Shown here one piece after another: positions 9,493 to 19,753 of a stretch of DNA of 32,122 bases; within the stretch, counting starts at the first letter, position 1; every line of letters starts with the position of its first letter. The notes under the pieces are model-generated. The model was not told the origin of the DNA, ran no database searches, and worked only from the letters and a program-made list of their open reading frames with translations. The DNA lies in assembly GCA_913058135.1 (NCBI GenBank), contig CAJXPR010000037.1, positions 1 to 32,122 on the forward strand, read 5' to 3'. The stretch is from an uncultured Gammaproteobacteria bacterium (GTDB taxonomy: Bacteria; Pseudomonadota; Gammaproteobacteria; Pseudomonadales; Pseudohongiellaceae). The translations under genes and the position numbers were made by a program.

Positions 9493-9846
9493 GCCTGTCT
9501 CCTGTGATGAGTTCCTGCGGTTGGCCACGGCGCCTGACCACACACCAGACCAGCCACGGACCAGCACCTGCTCAGCGAGGAGCGGTGGCCAGCACCCGGC
9601 AATCTTCAGTCACAAATCATCTTCTGTAAAATAGATATTAGCGCCCTATTCGTTCTATTTTTAAGCACAACCATCGTGCACGAGCCAAGCCTCTGCCTGC
9701 CTGGTCTCGACCGACCAACGACTTAAGCTTGACCTTTCGTTTATATGTATCAGATTATACCAACTGATCTGCTGGTCTGGCGTTACGGCGGCGCACACTC
9801 TTTAACCAATCCTCTGGTTCTGCCCCAGGCAGCGAGACTGACACTC
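9493..9846. promoter_or_regulatory. 354-bp divergent intergenic region (cysD / trypsin)
   Basis: No gene seen. Two things stand out. First, an inverted repeat AAAATAGA (9628-9635) and TCTATTTT (9654-9661), 18 bp apart, about 140 bp upstream of cysD and a possible regulator site. Second, a candidate + strand promoter: TTGACC at 9729-9734 and GATTAT at 9753-9758 (18-bp spacing), which would give a leader of about 80 nt before the protease start. This promoter lies across an in-frame upstream start codon at 9745 and argues against using it. Confidence 0.4.
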
Positions 9847-11010
9847 ATGAAAAACGTTTATCTGGCCACTGGCTTGTTTTGCGCAACTTTGCTTTCGCTC
9901 CCTGCATATTCACAACAACAGACTCGCATCATCAATGGCAAGCCCGCATCCACGGCAACCTACCCCTGGATGGCCAGTATTTTCATTCTGGGTGGCAAGG
10001 ACAGTGACAACGGCGGCGGTTGCGGTGGCAGCCTGATCGCTCCAAATTGGGTACTGACCGCGGCACACTGTTTCCTCAACGAGGCAGGTGATGCGATCGC
10101 CGACGACCCGGCCTCTCTGACCACGGTCACACTGAATACCGACAATATCGTTGACCTGGCATCCGGTGCAATCGAGCGCAGCGCCAGCCGGGTGCTGATT
10201 CACCCCAGCTATCAGCCCGATCCTGAGACCAGTGCCAACTCCAATGACTACGACATTGCGCTGGTTGAACTGTCATCAGCGGTCAGCGTAGCGCCGATCA
10301 GACTCTATAACGGCGCGTTGCCTGCTCACCTGCCGACACTGGTTGCCGGCTGGGGTGCAACTGTCGGAGATGGCACACAGGCGTCCGACGCCTTGCTTCA
10401 GACTCAGCTGCTGAGCACAACAACTGAGATATGCGCTGCGGCTCATGAAGGCCTGATTACATCGAACATGTTCTGCGCCGGCAGTTATACCGAGTCCGAT
10501 ACGTCGGACACTTGCCAGGGCGACAGCGGTGGCCCATTGTTCGTCAACCTTGAGCAGGGCGCCATGCAGATCGGTATTACCAGTTTCGGCGGCAGCGAGA
10601 CCGCCAATTGTGGCACACCAGGGTCACCGGGCGTCTATGCCAGCATCGCCGAGCTCTACAGCTTCATCAGCGATAACGCCTCCGGCATCACAACCGTAAA
10701 CTCTCTTTCTGATATCCGCGCATTACGCAATGCGTTTGATGGTGCAACCGATATCGTCACCATACCCAAGGTGTATGTCGACAGCCAGAATTACTCCGTC
10801 ACCCTTAAGCACACCGGCGACCTGAATTTTTTCCTGGCTACCGCCGAAGAGAATGCTACTGATGACCCGGATGCCATCCCTTCATTCTTTGATGGCGCCA
10901 ATAACAAATTGATATTGCCGCAGGTAAAGGTAGGGCTGGAAACCTTCAACGTCACCCTGCGACATCTGGGCGACTTCAAATTTACGGTGGAGACTGCGAA
11001 CCCGATCTGA
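9847..11010 (+). CDS. Secreted trypsin-like serine protease (S1) with duplicated C-terminal module
   Basis: 387 aa from ATG at 9847 (MKNVYLATG), chosen because it opens directly into a signal peptide (cleavage near AYSQQ). An S1 peptidase: zymogen-type junction R27-IING; catalytic His74 (LTAAHC), Asp136 (NDYDIALVEL) and Ser227 (CQGDSGGPL). Asp221, six residues before the Ser, corresponds to trypsin Asp189, so cleavage after Lys/Arg is predicted. Cysteines pair as in trypsins (CGG...AAHC, ICA...MFC, DTC...ANC). After the protease domain (to about 275) there are two copies of a beta-rich motif, at 307-334 and 357-384, each with a V.V....Y/F.VTL.H.GD..F pattern. Similar tails occur on other exported gammaproteobacterial proteins as I recall, but I cannot name a domain. 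It stands alone between cysD and the oxidase operon. Confidence 0.9.
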   Translation: MKNVYLATGLFCATLLSLPAYSQQQTRIINGKPASTATYPWMASIFILGGKDSDNGGGCGGSLIAPNWVLTAAHCFLNEAGDAIADDPASLTTVTLNTDNIVDLASGAIERSASRVLIHPSYQPDPETSANSNDYDIALVELSSAVSVAPIRLYNGALPAHLPTLVAGWGATVGDGTQASDALLQTQLLSTTTEICAAAHEGLITSNMFCAGSYTESDTSDTCQGDSGGPLFVNLEQGAMQIGITSFGGSETANCGTPGSPGVYASIAELYSFISDNASGITTVNSLSDIRALRNAFDGATDIVTIPKVYVDSQNYSVTLKHTGDLNFFLATAEENATDDPDAIPSFFDGANNKLILPQVKVGLETFNVTLRHLGDFKFTVETANPI

Positions 11011-11133: not shown

Positions 11134-12195
11134 GTGCCAGTGATGCGACAGAAAAACCGGAATTCGGCCTCTTTCATTTCCACAGCCCGCCGGGCCTGGC
11201 CCGATGGCTGCGCGCTGACAGCGTGCTGCCTGTGGTCGGGCGTCACGGAAGCCCAGCGGAGTGCCAGCCAGTCCGCCCTGCAACCGGCAAGCACCCAGGC
11301 ACAAGGCATTGAGCTGCTGTGGTGGATCATGCTGTGGAGCGGCGTGGTCATTTTCCTGGCTGTCATGGCCCTGCTGATCTGGGCGCTGTGGAGCGGTCGA
11401 CAACGAGAATCCCCGCTTAGCCTGACCGCCAGCAAAAACCTTGTCCTCACTGCGGGCGTGGCCATTCCGGCCCTGACCCTGGTCATCCTCGTGGGCGGCA
11501 GCCTGTTTTTGGGTCGCAGCGTTGCGTCGGCTCCGCCTCCCGATGCCATGCAGGTTCGAATTACCGGCTGGATGTGGTGGTGGGAAATCGAATATCTCGA
11601 CAGCGCCGGCAACATCACTGCCACCACCGCCAATGAAATGCATGTGCCCGTGGGCAGACCGGTGGCGGTAGAGCTGGCCTCCGGCGATGTCATTCACAGT
11701 TTTTGGGTACCACAACTGCAGGGCAAAACCGACATGGTGCCCGGCAAGGTCAACAGCAGCTGGTTTGTAGCCACCGAAGCGGGCGAATACCGGGGGCAGT
11801 GCGCAGAATTTTGCGGTCTGCAGCACGCCCTGATGGCGTTTGTCGTGGTCGCGCGACCCGAAGCCGAATTCGATGCATGGCTGGCACACCAGGCTGAGCC
11901 TGCCGCTGCCCCGGTAACTGCCGCCACGCAGCAAGGCCGTGATGTTTTTGAGCAATCCTGTGGGCATTGTCACCGCGTGCGTGGCACCGATGCCACTGGC
12001 AATATTGGCCCGGACTTAACGCATATAGCGTCGCGACGCACACTTGCGGCGGCTACGTTGGTCAACAACCGGGGGCATCTGGCGGGCTGGATCGGTGATC
12101 CTCAGCGTATCAAACCCGGCAATGCCATGCCCCGCTCGCTGCTCACCCCACAGGAATTGCATAATTTGCTGACATACCTCGAAACACTGGAGTAA
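11134..12195 (+). CDS. ctaC: Cytochrome c oxidase subunit II with fused cytochrome c (caa3 type)
   Basis: Receives electrons and passes them through the CuA centre to subunit I. 353 aa from GTG 11134; GTG 11140 or ATG 11143 are equally possible starts. Seen: two membrane helices (about 62-86 and 103-127), the aromatic electron-entry patch GWMWWWEIEY, and the CuA ligands His188 (IHSFWVP), Cys223, Glu225, Cys227, His231, Met234 in GQCAEFCGLQHALM. A cytochrome c domain is fused at about 265-353, with haem site CGHCH (276-280) and axial Met332 (GNAMPR). The fused domain means electrons can be accepted without a soluble cytochrome c, as in caa3 oxidases and CoxM-type subunits. First gene of the operon, 59 bp before subunit I. 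Its c domain resembles those encoded at the operon end. Confidence 0.94.
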   Translation: MPVMRQKNRNSASFISTARRAWPDGCALTACCLWSGVTEAQRSASQSALQPASTQAQGIELLWWIMLWSGVVIFLAVMALLIWALWSGRQRESPLSLTASKNLVLTAGVAIPALTLVILVGGSLFLGRSVASAPPPDAMQVRITGWMWWWEIEYLDSAGNITATTANEMHVPVGRPVAVELASGDVIHSFWVPQLQGKTDMVPGKVNSSWFVATEAGEYRGQCAEFCGLQHALMAFVVVARPEAEFDAWLAHQAEPAAAPVTAATQQGRDVFEQSCGHCHRVRGTDATGNIGPDLTHIASRRTLAAATLVNNRGHLAGWIGDPQRIKPGNAMPRSLLTPQELHNLLTYLETLE

Positions 12196-12254: not shown

Positions 12255-14159
12255 TTGAAGACGCAAGCAATATATGACCAGAACCCCGAGGCAACGGATC
12301 TGCTTTCGCGGACCTGGCGCTCCCCGCCGGGGTTCTTCGGCTGGTTCACCCATGTGAATCAATCCCGGATCGGTTACCGCTTTATTGTCACCTCAGTCAT
12401 ATTTTTTGCGCTCGCCGGTGTACTGGCGCTCGTCATGCGCCTGCAACTGATAAGCCCGGAGAATACGCTCCTGGGTGCGGACTTTTACAATCAGCTGTTT
12501 ACCATGCACGGCACAACAATGATGTTCTTCTTTGCCGTGCCTGCGATGGAAGGGCTGGGCATTTATCTGGTGCCGCTCATGATAGGCACACGAGACATGA
12601 GCTTTCCCCGGCTGAATGCGTTTGGCTATTACGTCTACCTGATAGCCGGCATCTCTCTTTACGTTGCGCTGTTTATGGGCATGGCCCCCGCAGCGGGCTG
12701 GTTCAGCTATGTGCCGCTGGCGAATATCGCCTTTTCCCCCGGCAAAGGCATGGACCTGTGGACCACCATGATCACCTTCATCGAGATCTCCGCGCTGGCA
12801 GCTGCCGTGGAGCTGATCGTGACCATACTCAAACAGCGGGCACCCGGCATGACGCTGAACCGCATGCCGCTGTTTGTCTGGTCCATTCTGGTCATGTCGT
12901 TCATGATCCTGTTTGCCATGCCCACGGTGATGGCTGGCAGCGTGCTGCTCGCCCTCGATCGGGCATTCGACATGCAATTTTTTGTCGCGGCGGGCGGCGG
13001 CGACGCGCTGCTTTGGCAACACCTGTTCTGGTTCTTCGGTCACCCTGAGGTCTATATCATCATGGTACCGGCACTGGGCATCGTGTCGACGGTCATCACC
13101 ACGTTCACGCAAAAGCCGGTGTTTGGTTATACCGCACTGGTACTGTCACTGGTCGCCACCGGCTTTGTTTCGTTTGGTCTGTGGGTGCATCACATGTTCA
13201 CAACCGGACTGCCGCACCTGGGGCTGAGCTTTTTCACGGCCGCCAGCGCCATGATCGCTATCCCAAGCGGCATTCAGATCTTCTGCTGGATTGCCTCCCT
13301 GTGGGGGGCCCGCATCCGTTTTGCTACGCCCATGCTGTTTGTTCTGGGATTTTTTGCCATCTTTGTTATAGGCGGGCTCACCGGTGTCATGGTCGCCTCC
13401 ATTCCATTCGACAGCCAGGTGCACGACAGCTATTTTGTGGTCGCGCATTTCCATTATGTACTGATCGGCGGTGCGGTTTTCCCTTTCTTTGCCGGGCTGT
13501 ACTACTGGTATCCCAAAATGACCGGCCGCCTCATGTCCGAGCGTCTGGGAAGATGGAGCTTCGCCCTGATCTTTGCAGGGACAAACCTGACTTTCTTCCC
13601 CATGCATCAATTGGGTCTGCAAGGCATGCCCCGGCGAGTCTACACCTACCTGAGCGACATGGGATGGGGAGAACTGAATTTCGCGATTACCATTGCTGCC
13701 TTCATCCTTGCCATCGGATTTCTGTTGACGCTGATTAACGCAGTAGTCAGTCGTACGCGCGGCGTGGCGGCTGGCAATAACCCGTGGCAGGCAGAAACAC
13801 TGGAGTGGGCAACCACGTCCCCACCGCAAAACTATAATTTCCGCCACCTGCCCATCGTCCACAGCAGAACACCGCTTTGGGACGAGCCAGACAGCTCACA
13901 TCGGCAGGTTGTAGCCGGTTTGCGCGCCGATCGCCGGGAATTGCTGATCACTACATTGCTGGAAGCCAAGCCGCAGAGCGTGCTGATCATGCCCCACCCC
14001 AGCGTCTGGCCGTTTTTACTGGCGCTGGCGGTGGGCTTCGGCTTCCTGGGATTCATGTTCCAGCCGCTACTGTTTGTCGCTGGTTTCGCGTTGAGTTTTT
14101 TCATGATCGTCGGCTGGTTGTGGCCCCGGAAGCCATGGCTGGACACCGGCGAGACATAA
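12255..14159 (+). CDS. ctaD: Haem-copper oxidase subunit I, A1-like with altered proton channels
   Basis: Catalytic subunit that reduces O2 to water at the haem a3-CuB site. 634 aa. Starts at TTG 12255, supported by AGGGAGAG at 12241-12248. All metal ligands are present: His85 (FTMHGTTMMF), His263 with cross-link partner Tyr267 (GHPEVYI), His312/His313 (VHHMF), and VHDSYFVVAHFHYVL. Glu265 defines the A1-type D channel. Aligning with Paracoccus subunit I (constant offset of 13 from His276 to Lys354): Lys354 is Gln341 (IPSGIQIFCW) and Thr351 is Ser338, while Ser291 is kept (Ser278). In the D channel Asp124 and Asn131 are kept (Asp114, Asn121), but Asn113 is Ile103 and Asn199 is Glu186. The C-terminal 100 residues add an HLPIVHSRTPLW linker and two extra helices, as in several caa3/CoxN-type subunits. 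Paracoccus residues are quoted from memory. Confidence 0.95.
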   Translation: MKTQAIYDQNPEATDLLSRTWRSPPGFFGWFTHVNQSRIGYRFIVTSVIFFALAGVLALVMRLQLISPENTLLGADFYNQLFTMHGTTMMFFFAVPAMEGLGIYLVPLMIGTRDMSFPRLNAFGYYVYLIAGISLYVALFMGMAPAAGWFSYVPLANIAFSPGKGMDLWTTMITFIEISALAAAVELIVTILKQRAPGMTLNRMPLFVWSILVMSFMILFAMPTVMAGSVLLALDRAFDMQFFVAAGGGDALLWQHLFWFFGHPEVYIIMVPALGIVSTVITTFTQKPVFGYTALVLSLVATGFVSFGLWVHHMFTTGLPHLGLSFFTAASAMIAIPSGIQIFCWIASLWGARIRFATPMLFVLGFFAIFVIGGLTGVMVASIPFDSQVHDSYFVVAHFHYVLIGGAVFPFFAGLYYWYPKMTGRLMSERLGRWSFALIFAGTNLTFFPMHQLGLQGMPRRVYTYLSDMGWGELNFAITIAAFILAIGFLLTLINAVVSRTRGVAAGNNPWQAETLEWATTSPPQNYNFRHLPIVHSRTPLWDEPDSSHRQVVAGLRADRRELLITTLLEAKPQSVLIMPHPSVWPFLLALAVGFGFLGFMFQPLLFVAGFALSFFMIVGWLWPRKPWLDTGET

Positions 14160-14170
14160 TGGAGGCGATG

Positions 14171-14794
14171 ATGTGCCCAGCTGAAACGACCCGTCTGAAC
14201 TTCGCTGTTGACGCGACCCATTTCAGTCGCTTTCACAGTGGCAGTGATGCGCCAATATGGTGGGGCATCATCGGCCTGATACTGATTGAAATGAGTGTTG
14301 TGGCAGCATTTGTCATCAGCTATTTTTACCTGGTAATGATCAATCCGTCCTGGCCACCCATCGGGCACCCTGCGTCTGAGCTGCTGTGGCCAACGGCCTC
14401 TGTCGTTATTCTGCTGATGAGCTGCGTCACCATGTACCTGGCGAGCAAGGCCATCAATCGCGATCGCATCACCGCCTTTGTTACCCACACATCTATCTCT
14501 GTGGTGCTGGCCTGCGCAGTGCTGGTCATTCGCTGGCAGCAGTTCCAGACCTTCGATTTCCGCTGGGATGAACACGTTTACGGATCTCTGGTGTGGACCA
14601 TCTCCGGTTTTCATTTTCTGCATGTGGTGTCGGCAGCGATCGGCACAGCCGTGGTGGCCACTCTTGGCGCCCTGAAATTTTTTAACAGCAAACAGCGCAT
14701 CGCGATCGTGGTAGATACGATGTACTGGAATTTTGTTGGCCTGGCATGGATCCCGTTTTACCTGGTTCTTTACATAGTGCCACGTCTAACGTGA
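14171..14794 (+). CDS. ctaE: Cytochrome c oxidase subunit III
   Basis: 207 aa membrane subunit that binds no metal but stabilises subunit I and its proton uptake. Chosen start ATG 14171 (MCPAETTRLNF), because GGAGG at 14161-14165 is spaced correctly for it; ATGs at 14159 and 14168 are in frame but poorly placed. Five probable helices; seen: GIIGLILIEMSVVAAFVISY for the first helix, FHFLHVVSAAIGT with the HxxH-type helix typical of subunit III, and YWNFVGLAWIPFYLVLYI at the end, the usual WxFV...W closing helix. The short form without the first two helices of the mitochondrial protein is normal here because subunit I carries two additional C-terminal helices. Starts 11 bp after subunit I. Confidence 0.9.
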   Translation: MCPAETTRLNFAVDATHFSRFHSGSDAPIWWGIIGLILIEMSVVAAFVISYFYLVMINPSWPPIGHPASELLWPTASVVILLMSCVTMYLASKAINRDRITAFVTHTSISVVLACAVLVIRWQQFQTFDFRWDEHVYGSLVWTISGFHFLHVVSAAIGTAVVATLGALKFFNSKQRIAIVVDTMYWNFVGLAWIPFYLVLYIVPRLT

Positions 14795-14811
14795 TAGAGG
14801 AGGGTAGGCAC

Positions 14812-15177
14812 ATGCAAAAGCACTCCCGGCAGATCAGCGACCGGCGCCTTTGGCTGAGCGCGTTTGCGCCCGCGCTCGCCTGGGCATTGCACGTGTCTGG
14901 CAGCTACGCCTTTGTGGAACTGTACTGCGGGCAACTTGCATTCATGGGGAGCGCCGCAGCGCTGTGGATCCTGTTTTCGTTCACAGCGCTGATGTTGCTG
15001 CTCGCCATTGTCGGTTGCGTGCAGTGTTACCGTAACCGTGATGTCATCAGTCATGACCAAACCGGGCACCGACGCGGTCTGTTTGTTGCCACCTCCGGTT
15101 TGCTACTGGGGATATTCATGGTGGCCTCTATACTGATGCAGACCTTCCCGCTCATGGTGTTGCCGCCATGTATATAG
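14812..15177 (+). CDS. Small membrane protein of the caa3 oxidase operon
   Basis: 121 aa from ATG 14812 (GAGGAGGG at 14797-14804). Three predicted helices at about 15-33, 44-64 and 85-108. No recognised domain; features are a polar first half containing ALHVSGSYAFVELYCGQ and a charged loop YRNRDVISHDQTGHRR. Its place between subunit III and CtaG, with a 10-bp overlap into ctaG, suggests a structural fourth subunit or an assembly helper. Comparable small hydrophobic proteins occur next to ctaG in other proteobacterial oxidase operons of the coxMNOP kind, but I am not sure of homology. Not a haem or copper protein on what can be seen (only three Cys, no His-rich motif). Confidence 0.75.
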   Translation: MQKHSRQISDRRLWLSAFAPALAWALHVSGSYAFVELYCGQLAFMGSAAALWILFSFTALMLLLAIVGCVQCYRNRDVISHDQTGHRRGLFVATSGLLLGIFMVASILMQTFPLMVLPPCI

Positions 15178-16103
15178 CAGCGTGGCTCAGGGCAGGCGCA
15201 GCGTCAGGTGTGCTGTTCACGGCAACCCGGGCTTCTGCCCATACGGTCGGTGACAGGGCGGATTTTAATCCCTGGATCCCCGACGTGCTGACAACGCTAC
15301 TGCTACTGGCAACAGCACTGATCTACTGGCGTGGTCAGCGCGCTGGTAGAGCGCGGACCAGCCAGAAGACCAGACAGCAATACTGGTTCTGGTGTGGCTG
15401 GATGCTGCTGACAGTGGCCCTGGCACCGCCGATCGACCCCATGGGCAATGCGCTGTTCTCGGTACATATGATTCAGCATGAACTGATGATGCTCGGTGCA
15501 GCCCCTCTGCTGGTGGCAAGCCGACCCTCAGCCAGACTGTTACGCGGTTTGCCGCGCGCGGCCGCGCGTGCCGTCGGCGCCCTGCTAAGAGTGACTGGCG
15601 GTTCACACTGGCTCGCCTGGCTGAGCATGCCCCTTAATGCCTGGTTCATTCACGCCGCCGGCCTTTGGGCCTGGCATATCCCCTGGCTGTTCAATGCCGG
15701 ACTGCGCAATGACCTGGTGCACACCGCGCAACACATCAGCTTTCTGTTTATCGCGCTGGTATTCTGGTTCGCGCTGCTGAAACCCAGTCCCACCAGTCCG
15801 GTGGCCAATGTCATCTATCTGTTTACCACAGCATTGCACGCGTCCATGCTCGGCGCATTGCTGACATTCTCCCCGCAGCCCTGGTACTCACCTTACGAAG
15901 CGACCGCACCGCAATGGGGATTCACCGCACTGGAAGACCAGCAACTGGGAGGGTTGATCATGTGGATGCCTGCCGGTACCGTCTTTTTGGTCGCGGCCCT
16001 GGTGTGCCTGGCAAAAGTCCTGAGCACAGTCGACCCCGACCCAGCCGCCAGCTTGCAGACAGTGGACAGCCGAAACGCCCACGGGGAGCGCACACACTCA
16101 TGA
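15168..16103 (+). CDS. ctaG: Caa3-type oxidase assembly factor CtaG
   Basis: 311 aa polytopic membrane protein of the Caa3_CtaG family (unrelated to the Cox11 protein also called CtaG), needed in Bacillus for formation of active caa3 oxidase and thought to deliver copper. Seen: a signal-like N-terminus ending ASAHTVGD; about seven helices; conserved FSVHMIQHELMMLGAAPLLV, with the His-rich HMIQHELMM core; WLAWLSMPLNAWFIHAAGLWAWH; HTAQHISFLFIALVFW; and a final DQQLGGLIMWMPAG. The His pairs are the likely metal ligands. It overlaps the previous gene by 10 bp and its stop overlaps the ATG of the cytochrome c lipoprotein (ATGA), so all are translationally coupled. No ctaB, ctaA or cox11 gene is present in the window. 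Confidence 0.92.
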   Translation: MYIAAWLRAGAASGVLFTATRASAHTVGDRADFNPWIPDVLTTLLLLATALIYWRGQRAGRARTSQKTRQQYWFWCGWMLLTVALAPPIDPMGNALFSVHMIQHELMMLGAAPLLVASRPSARLLRGLPRAAARAVGALLRVTGGSHWLAWLSMPLNAWFIHAAGLWAWHIPWLFNAGLRNDLVHTAQHISFLFIALVFWFALLKPSPTSPVANVIYLFTTALHASMLGALLTFSPQPWYSPYEATAPQWGFTALEDQQLGGLIMWMPAGTVFLVAALVCLAKVLSTVDPDPAASLQTVDSRNAHGERTHS

Positions 16104-16477
16104 CAAGGCGCGTGACCCGGATGACCATGATTTTTTTCTTGCTGACAGGGCTGACGGCCGGCTGCGGGCCCGAGTCTGCCACCCATACACCTGCAGGCGA
16201 TATCGCTCGCGGCGAGCGCGCAATTGAGATCGCCGGCTGCGGCAGCTGCCATGCCATTCCGGGTATCGACAGCGCCAACGGTCGCGTCGGCCCGCCTCTG
16301 CATAATCTTGCGCGCCGCGCTTATCTTGCCGGTGTGCTACCCAATAATTTCACCAACCTGGTGCGTTGGATACAGCACCCGCGCGACATTTCGCCCGGCA
16401 CCGCGATGCCGGATACCGGGCTGGATCAACGGACCGCTGAGGACATAGCGGCGTATCTGTACCATATGGAACCGTGA
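16100..16477 (+). CDS. Monohaem cytochrome c lipoprotein
   Basis: 125 aa. N-terminal lipoprotein signal with lipobox LTAGC (Cys at about 26), so anchored on the outside of a membrane in the periplasm. One c-type haem site GCGSCH and a probable axial Met in GTAMPDTG. Start ATG 16100 overlaps the ctaG stop; GGGGAG is upstream. The domain is clearly related to the second domain of the next gene (CHAIPGI / CHVIPGI, VGPPL, RR.Y.AGVL, NLVRWI, MPD.G) and more distantly to the c domain of subunit II. Probably an electron donor to the oxidase. It is not a known named cytochrome. Confidence 0.88.
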   Translation: MTRRVTRMTMIFFLLTGLTAGCGPESATHTPAGDIARGERAIEIAGCGSCHAIPGIDSANGRVGPPLHNLARRAYLAGVLPNNFTNLVRWIQHPRDISPGTAMPDTGLDQRTAEDIAAYLYHMEP

Positions 16478-17370
16478 TGAAAGTCGAAAACCGATACATT
16501 TATATTGTTCTCGCCTCATTGGCACTGGCAGGGTCTGTTGCTGCCGGTGTTTTTGTTTACGCAGGCGGTTACGACACTTCTGCCCTGAAACAGCACACTG
16601 CTCTTGTTTATCAGATCATGACCACGGTGCGCTCCCGCTCGGTGGCAGTGCGGAGCGATTTCAGCACCCCGGATCTTGACGAGGTGGACTGGCAGAATGC
16701 CGGCATTCTGCAGTACGAAAACAATTGCCGCCAGTGTCATGGCGCGCCTGGCCGTCCACCGGACAGTTTCTCGCTGGGCATGAAACCGGCCCCTACCGCC
16801 ATTGTTGAACTGGCCCGCAGACGGACGCCGCAGGAGATATACCATGTTATCGAACACGGCATAAAGATGACCGGTATGCCCGCATGGGCGTATCGCATGA
16901 GCGCAGCGGAAATGTGGCAGGTGGTCGCCGTGATCAAACAGGTTGCCAATATGACCCATGACGATTATGACCGCCTTTTGCGTCAGGCCCGCGCACAGAC
17001 AACTGACGTAGCGACTGCACAAACGCAAAATCTGTTGCAACGGGCCACGGCGGAAGAATCAGCCTTTCCCCAGGCTGATGAAACCGGATCACAGGTGAGT
17101 ATCGGGAAAGTGGCGTTTCAGCAATACAACTGCGTCAGCTGTCACGTTATTCCCGGCATTACCGCGGCGCGGACGAACGTGGGTCCGCCACTTGAAGACG
17201 TTACCCGACGCAGCTACATCGCAGGTGTTCTGGCCTACAGCGATGACAACCTGGTGCGGTGGATCCGCTCACCAACAGCAATAGACCCCGACACCCTGAT
17301 GCCGGATCTGGGCGTTAGCGAAGCGCATGCGCGGGCCATGCTCGCCTACCTCAAATCGGTGGCGCAGTGA
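16477..17370 (+). CDS. Membrane-anchored dihaem cytochrome c
   Basis: 297 aa. One N-terminal helix (about 8-30) anchors two periplasmic cytochrome c domains. Domain 1 has NNCRQCH (Cys84, Cys87, His88) and axial Met134 in MTGMPAW; domain 2 has NCVSCH (Cys219, Cys222, His223) and axial Met275 in LMPDLG. The linker (about 165-205) is rich in Gln/Ala/Glu. ATG 16477 shares bases with the previous stop (TGATG), so translation is coupled. Domain 1 resembles the GxPAW-type c domains found in alcohol-dehydrogenase and bc-type electron carriers; domain 2 is a paralogue of the preceding lipoprotein. Likely role: collecting electrons from bc1 or a dehydrogenase for the caa3 oxidase. Last gene of the operon; a strong hairpin follows. 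Confidence 0.88.
   Translation: MKVENRYIYIVLASLALAGSVAAGVFVYAGGYDTSALKQHTALVYQIMTTVRSRSVAVRSDFSTPDLDEVDWQNAGILQYENNCRQCHGAPGRPPDSFSLGMKPAPTAIVELARRRTPQEIYHVIEHGIKMTGMPAWAYRMSAAEMWQVVAVIKQVANMTHDDYDRLLRQARAQTTDVATAQTQNLLQRATAEESAFPQADETGSQVSIGKVAFQQYNCVSCHVIPGITAARTNVGPPLEDVTRRSYIAGVLAYSDDNLVRWIRSPTAIDPDTLMPDLGVSEAHARAMLAYLKSVAQ

Positions 17371-17453: not shown

Positions 17454-19753
<2,300 letters not shown>

Follow-up and report, generated by a model that had tools for sequence, protein, structure and literature searches.

The K-channel lysine of A-family haem-copper oxidases (Lys354 in Paracoccus, Lys362 in R. sphaeroides) and its glutamate partner in subunit II are held to be necessary for normal turnover. 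A cytochrome c oxidase operon in DNA of an uncultured gammaproteobacterium of the Pseudohongiellaceae (assembly GCA_913058135.1, contig CAJXPR010000037.1; the 32,122-nucleotide stretch analysed is referred to as the window) encodes a subunit I with glutamine in place of this lysine. This raises the question of how such an oxidase obtains its protons.

A caa3-type operon with an altered subunit I

The oxidase genes lie together on the + strand. coxB (11134-12195, start codon unproven) encodes a subunit II in which a CuA domain (PF00116) is fused to a C-terminal cytochrome c domain (PF00034), the caa3 arrangement. It is followed by coxA (12255-14159) and by coxC for subunit III (14171-14794, identified from a PF00510 match in the longer ORF 13877-14794 and from homologues beside coxA in relatives). 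Then come a small gene whose product reads as hydrophobic (14812-15177), ctaG for a caa3-type copper assembly factor (15168-16103; PF09678, E 2.1e-52), and genes for a single-haem cytochrome c (16100-16477, read from an ATG; weak PF00034/PF13442 matches in the longer ORF 15914-16477) and a di-haem cytochrome c (16477-17370; PF13442 and two PF00034 stretches in ORF 16474-17370), after which katG is found on the opposite strand. The ORF of the small gene (14746-15177) gave 0 matches in Pfam and NCBIfam; homologues occupy the same place in two congeneric genomes (G003 and G007) and, weakly (30% identity), in Catenovulum. The operon is kept in the congeners and in Catenovulum, and the coxB-coxA-coxC-ctaG order, which the preliminary description had linked to a possible subclade, does recur, in the window's own subgroup.

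The operon is flanked upstream by a trypsin-like protease gene (9745-11010) and downstream by katG (17454-19679). G003 and G007 have both genes beside the operon as well; the Catenovulum stretch showed neither. A general functional link with katG was rejected, the neighbourhood being kept in three congeneric loci and not in Catenovulum.

The coxA (ctaD) ORF starts with TTG, encodes 634 residues and has no internal stops. Its product is assigned to A-family subunit I (COX1) by PF00115 (E 4.9e-151), by TIGR02891 (above cut-off) and by our trees. An AlphaFold2 model (mean pLDDT 92.5) matches solved COX1 chains, among them the R. sphaeroides K362M mutant (3om3_A, TM to target 0.89). The metal ligands of haem and copper are intact, and in a 50-row alignment the His ligands and Tyr267 are invariant, with Glu265 present in at least 90% of rows. 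The COX1 fold, the His ligands and the Tyr in GHPEVY are those of type A1, and Glu265 of this motif corresponds to the A1 glutamate (Glu278) rather than to the A2 Tyr-Ser motif. The channels depart from this type: the A1 K-channel set Lys354/Thr351/Ser291/Tyr280 reads Gln/Ser/Ser/Tyr, and only Asp124 and Asn131 are kept of the seven D-channel residues.

Residues were mapped by chaining the window COX1 through the canonical COX1 of the same genome (L001) to Paracoccus 1ar1_A. Those kept are Asp114 (codon 12594-12596; the D-channel entrance Asp124, lost in a number of relatives), Asn121 (Asn131), Glu265 (Glu278), Tyr267 (Tyr280) and Ser278 (Ser291). In the K channel, Ser338 (13266-13268) takes the place of Thr351 and Gln341 (13275-13277) that of Lys354; in the D channel, Ile103 (12561-12563) replaces Asn113 and Glu186 (12810-12812) replaces Asn199, all codons being on the + strand. 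Both the chained and the PDB alignments, and the codon CAG read directly for Gln341, confirm every residue named in the preliminary description. Further differences are Phe43 for Tyr35, Ala180 for Ser193 (with the neighbouring Ser192 kept), Gly for Ser134 and two additional acids, Glu99 (12549-12551, +) at Gly109, four residues before Asn113, and Glu177 (12783-12785, +) at Gly190. In each of five PDB alignments, with mycobacterial aa3 and Bacillus aa3-600 among them, the (V/I)PTG(I/V)K motif places its Lys against Gln341. No gap comes closer than ~20 residues upstream, and that one is missing from the aa3-600 alignments. In none of these alignments does a Lys of the window's COX1 fall at the channel position.

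A clade of lysine-less oxidases

Relatives were taken from 80 named loci (the best 80 of at least 594) and from loci of further genomes, and ORFs not spanning ~110 to 345 of the query were dropped before counting. The resulting alignment of 152 distinct COX1 stretches and the window copy (153 rows) has Gln at the channel position in 86 rows, Lys in 60, Ala in 4, Met in 2 and Thr in 1; these are counts from a set gathered by similarity to the window gene, which is in it twice, and not population frequencies. Since Gln occupies this place in 86 of the 153 rows, Gln341 is not a chance occurrence. One of the dropped rows (L075, Xaviernesmea oryzae) has a COX1 of the Lys-less kind split over two ORFs (262 and 390 codons).

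Trees were built without the channel columns and without a B- or C-family outgroup, and no root was inferred. In the first, from rows thinned at 80%, the Lys-less clade comprises 56 of 93 rows (SH-aLRT 100) and lies inside the Lys-bearing A family. A second tree with further A-family types, including A2-type (YSHPAVY) rows and some rows that are presumably bo3-type, places 25 of 55 rows in the clade (bootstrap 100, SH-aLRT 100), the window COX1 being nested among Lys-bearing A-family rows. In these trees Gln341 is the mark of a clade and not a peculiarity of the window gene. The subclade proposed in the preliminary description is borne out in the trees and the 153 rows, where Gln341 co-occurs with some residue other than Asn, usually a hydrophobic one, in the Asn113 place and mostly with Glu186; its broader proposal of a natural oxidase with a reworked proton supply is supported as well.

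Three Lys-less rows fall outside the main clade, and on the 55-row tree the presence or absence of Lys has to change three times. Two of these rows (L110 and L113, from G024 and G027 of the same order) are natural Lys-to-Met COX1 proteins with Ser291Gly and Thr351Val; Asp124, Asn113, Asn131, Asn199 and Glu278 are kept, and the subunit II entry Glu is absent. Judged from the tree, their loss of Lys is separate from that in the window's clade. The third (L203, G249) is an A2-type COX1 (YSHPAVY) on a long branch, in which Lys has become Thr, while Phe and Val stand in for Ser and Thr of the K channel.

Two other Lys-less types were seen. A sister branch with the motif GHPWVY (L032, L037:8176-10092, L124, L129, L145, L146 and L150) has Trp for Glu278 and Ala, Thr or Gln for Lys354, and keeps Asp124, Asn113 and Asn199; oxidases of this kind would lack the Glu of the D channel as well as the Lys of the K channel. 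A longer type (L003, L027, L034, L120 and others), with ORFs of ~860 or more codons, has Ser, Gly or Ala for Asn131 and keeps Glu99, Glu177 and Glu186. Pfam found nothing in the ~300 or more residues that follow its COX1 domain, and the label COX1-COX3 fusion was withdrawn, a COX3 domain being found by Pfam in 0 of 4 tested.

Draws of 274 genomes from the class and 299 from the phylum, which overlap in some genomes, the window's own included, contained at least 11 and at least 24, respectively, with a Lys-less COX1 gene (match E 1e-135 or better, residues read); Lys-less genes below the E threshold would go undetected. Four more genomes past the threshold, two per draw, turned out to be Lys-type. 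The preliminary description's statement that the K-channel Lys is near-invariant in the A family therefore needs qualifying, both by these frequencies and by the three changes in the 55-row tree.

The named members of the clade are Pseudomonadota isolates and bins, together with metagenome bins from Gemmatimonadota, Rokuibacteriota, Acidobacteriota, Bdellovibrionota and Actinomycetota; the bins are possibly contaminated. Among 15 genomes of the genus, two of them less than 90% complete, the window's own and two others have the orthologue. On plasmids, 902 records match the window gene at E 1e-60, probably including Lys-type genes, and the best 40 of these 902 are 57-78% identical to it. The three plasmid copies that we read (Catenovulum adriaticum, R. 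etli CFN42 p42b and M. japonicum pMLb) share Gln and Glu177 and lack the subunit II Glu; the copy on pMLb, a plasmid typed as conjugative, has His at the Asp124 place. On two different Hyphomicrobiales plasmids (L207 and L208) the oxidase cluster has a gene for an FdhF/YdeP family oxidoreductase nearby. Plasmid records annotate Lys-less genes as plain cytochrome c oxidase subunit I, and they are thus easily mistaken for ordinary proton-pumping oxidases.

Lys-less genes are found beside canonical ones. The window's genome has two Lys-type COX1 genes (L001 and L004), a second Lys-less gene of the longer type (L003), a haem A synthase gene and a COX1-like fragment that we take to be a cbb3 subunit. 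A match to canonical COX1 of at least 55% identity is present in 34 of 35 genomes with a Lys-less gene, and the channel residues, read in 30 of the 34, include Lys in all 30; in the remaining genome (G064) the best match is only 41%, with the channel residues unread. On these matches the Lys-less enzyme is an extra oxidase accompanying canonical ones. Comparison of the window coxA with its congeneric orthologues gives dN 0.076 and dS 1.09 (~0.07) in one case and dN 0.092 and dS 1.67 (~0.055) in the other, the dS values above 1 being near saturation; it appears to be under purifying selection and looks like a working gene.

The preliminary description also called the oxidase CoxN-like, for which we find no support. 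CoxMNOP of R. etli, P. pseudoalcaligenes KF707 and Cupriavidus necator is, like the window's enzyme, an extra A-type oxidase. A coxMNOP mutant of R. etli is reported to be without a distinct growth defect (PMC4274787), and coxMNOPQ of C. necator, there called bb3, to have no fitness effect (PMC11540253). The R. etli CFN42 relative of the window gene lies on p42b, and we infer that it is the RHE_PB00063-66 cluster because this is the only matching place on p42b among the plasmid matches. In the R. etli paper that cluster is listed apart from coxMNOP and is not studied (PMC4274787), a comparison made by description only. The coxMNOP layout is also recorded in the KF707 paper for Sinorhizobium and Mesorhizobium (PMC5492768); both also hold Lys-less genes, and overlap with CoxMNOP is possible.

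K-channel variants of family A have been mapped on an archaeal COX1 tree (Degli Esposti 2021, PMC8239418); under the assumption of an archaeal ancestor, which the authors disfavour, that paper counts seven losses of K. Its tree is archaeal, whereas the window's clade is bacterial. In an earlier survey, only 4 of 1216 sequences, assigned to type B, are reported to be without the channel residues of their family (Sousa 2011, PMC3084760), a pattern into which the Lys-less genes do not seem to fit. No description of a bacterial Lys-less clade was found in open-access titles and abstract openings, which leave subscription papers mostly uncovered, and an earlier description elsewhere is possible.

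The two ends of the K channel and the D side

The entry Glu of the K channel belongs to an LExxWTxxP-like motif in subunit II, and we take it to be the equivalent of bovine Glu62 and R. sphaeroides Glu101. In loci L001-L115, 50 of the 51 subunits II encoded next to Lys-type COX1 have it (the sole exception, L083, has Gln), against 0 of 59 next to Lys-less (Gln-, Ala- or Met-type) COX1, with the same result in the three plasmid loci; the helix concerned is poorly conserved, so that the alignment is less sure in the Lys-less rows and an acid a few residues off could be overlooked. Leu105 (codon 11446-11448, +) takes this place in the window's coxB. Two further subunits II outside the count, beside the split COX1 and the second copy of the window gene, are likewise non-Glu. 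A search of the Lys-less subunits II for the motif itself found none, except for a non-aligning stretch in L038. Judged by the aligned residues, neither end of the K channel survives in any Lys-less row for which both subunits were examined.

On the D side, the 48 tree rows of the window's branch have Glu177 without exception, against Gly in 94% of 35 Lys-type rows; Glu186 is present in 81% of the branch, against Asn in 100% of the Lys-type rows, and Glu99 in 83%. Counted over the full alignment, Glu177 occurs in 83 of the 86 Gln rows, and Glu99 and Glu186 each in 71, with none of the three acids in any of the 60 Lys rows, which all have Asn at both the Asn113 and the Asn199 places. The Gln rows without Glu177 (L032, L047 and L124) all belong to the sister branch, which keeps Asn113. 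As mapped, the new carboxylates sit in helices II and IV, the helices that flank the D channel; by our own helical-wheel reckoning Glu177 may lie on the flank of helix IV, perhaps not facing the channel. With the loss of the subunit II Glu, the new Glu177 and Glu99 are, in these alignments, changes beyond those of the preliminary description. A test for co-change of Glu99 and Glu186 on rows thinned at 90% gave 4 usable independent pairs (sign test, median p 1), too few changes. The Asp124 place itself varies among the 86 Gln rows (Asp 52, Asn 19, Ser 8, Glu 7), and 27 of them are without both Lys354 and an acid at 124. In one metagenome row (L047) Lys is lost, yet Asn113, Asp124, Asn199 and Glu278 are kept, an indication that the loss of K preceded the changes on the D side.

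The window's oxidase can be compared closely with the A1-type aa3 and caa3 enzymes (Paracoccus 1ar1, R. sphaeroides 1m56, caa3 2yev). Shared with these are the fold, the metal ligands, the GHPEVY Glu, the Tyr, a CuA subunit II with a cytochrome c domain and a caa3-type CtaG. In contrast, it has neither the K-channel Lys nor the subunit II entry Glu, its Asn113 and Asn199 are replaced, and Glu99, Glu177 and Glu186 are new. The same channels are altered in R. sphaeroides K362M and D132A and Paracoccus Asn131Asp (3om3, 3omi and 3ehb). Those are laboratory mutants, whereas the window's changes are natural, combined and conserved.

A proposed proton supply without a conventional K channel

We lean, with modest confidence, towards a caa3 CuA oxidase that takes up protons without a conventional K channel, by a rebuilt, Glu-containing route on the D side, and that probably pumps less. 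O2 would still be reduced at a normal haem-copper-Tyr centre. The protons of the reductive half-cycle, which use the K channel in canonical enzymes, would arrive together with the rest by a single D-side route that passes through or beside Glu177 and ends at Glu265. With a carboxylate in place of part of the Asn gate, fewer protons would probably be pumped per electron, and the enzyme would serve as an accessory oxidase beside canonical ones. A Paracoccus mutant chain titled as decoupled by D-pathway mutation (3ehb) has Asp at Asn131, indicating that a carboxylate in the Asn gate can uncouple. By analogy with it, reduced pumping by the window's oxidase is likely, and the altered pumping efficiency foreseen in the preliminary description is plausible.

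More tentatively, a single new proton route on the invariant Glu177 of helix IV may replace both textbook entrances throughout the clade, a possibility to which we give rather less than even weight. Glu177 persists in relatives that have lost Asp124 and, in some cases, Glu186 and Glu99 as well. The D-channel entrance thus cannot serve every relative as the route, and where Asp124, Glu186 and Glu99 are all missing the entrance may be altogether new. In relatives such as those from Caballeronia, Paraburkholderia and Massilia (L017, L018, L023 and L055), Asp124, Asn113, Asn199, Lys354 and the subunit II Glu are all absent; if this reading is true, these are A-family oxidases that work with neither a D nor a K entrance.

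The degeneration of the proton entrances in a number of relatives could instead mean that the enzyme is non-pumping, that it takes up protons from the periplasmic side, or that it serves mainly to remove NO or peroxide rather than to conserve energy. Its status as an extra oxidase beside canonical ones, its occurrence on plasmids and the catalase-peroxidase gene adjoining the cluster in the three congeneric loci would suit such a role. We nevertheless consider it unlikely. NO reductases are without the cross-linked Tyr (PMC3084760), but Tyr267 is present here; Glu265 is kept as well, katG does not adjoin the cluster in Catenovulum, and the conserved new Glu residues suggest a proton route.

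Less probable still is a K channel that works without its lysine, in which protons would move along Gln341, Ser338, Ser278, Tyr267 and water, just as B- and C-type enzymes rely on hydroxyl and tyrosine residues. An alternative K channel without Lys is indeed used by the B and C types (Sousa 2011, PMC3084760). In the 153-row alignment the Tyr280 equivalent is kept in all Lys-less rows and Ser291 in most, and Thr302, which replaces the Ile of Lys-type rows in 60% of the window's branch, could be a new polar member. The rest of the channel does not follow this pattern. The subunit II entry Glu is kept in none of the 59, the Thr351 position varies between Ser, Thr, Ala and Asn, and, in a residue comparison of the tree branches, the Asn three residues after the Lys is Cys or Ala in 90%. 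Gln341 aside, none of the new polar residues in helices VI-VIII reaches 80% conservation, and in the sister branch the Lys place is Ala, Thr or Gln.

An alignment artefact, a sequencing error or a decaying gene has a negligible probability and was rejected, for nothing at the window gene speaks for it and only one relative (L075) has a split COX1, whereas the orthologue and structure alignments agree, the operon is kept in congeners and Catenovulum, coxA dN/dS is ~0.06, Gln is found in 86 rows, and the same residue in the congeneric orthologues (G003, 88% identical; G007, 86%) and the Catenovulum plasmid copy (77%) excludes a sequencing error.

The clade also has a wider use. Found in several phyla, under selection and equipped with new carboxylates, its members are ready-made natural variants, which let one ask which route feeds the binuclear centre and whether pumping needs two channels.
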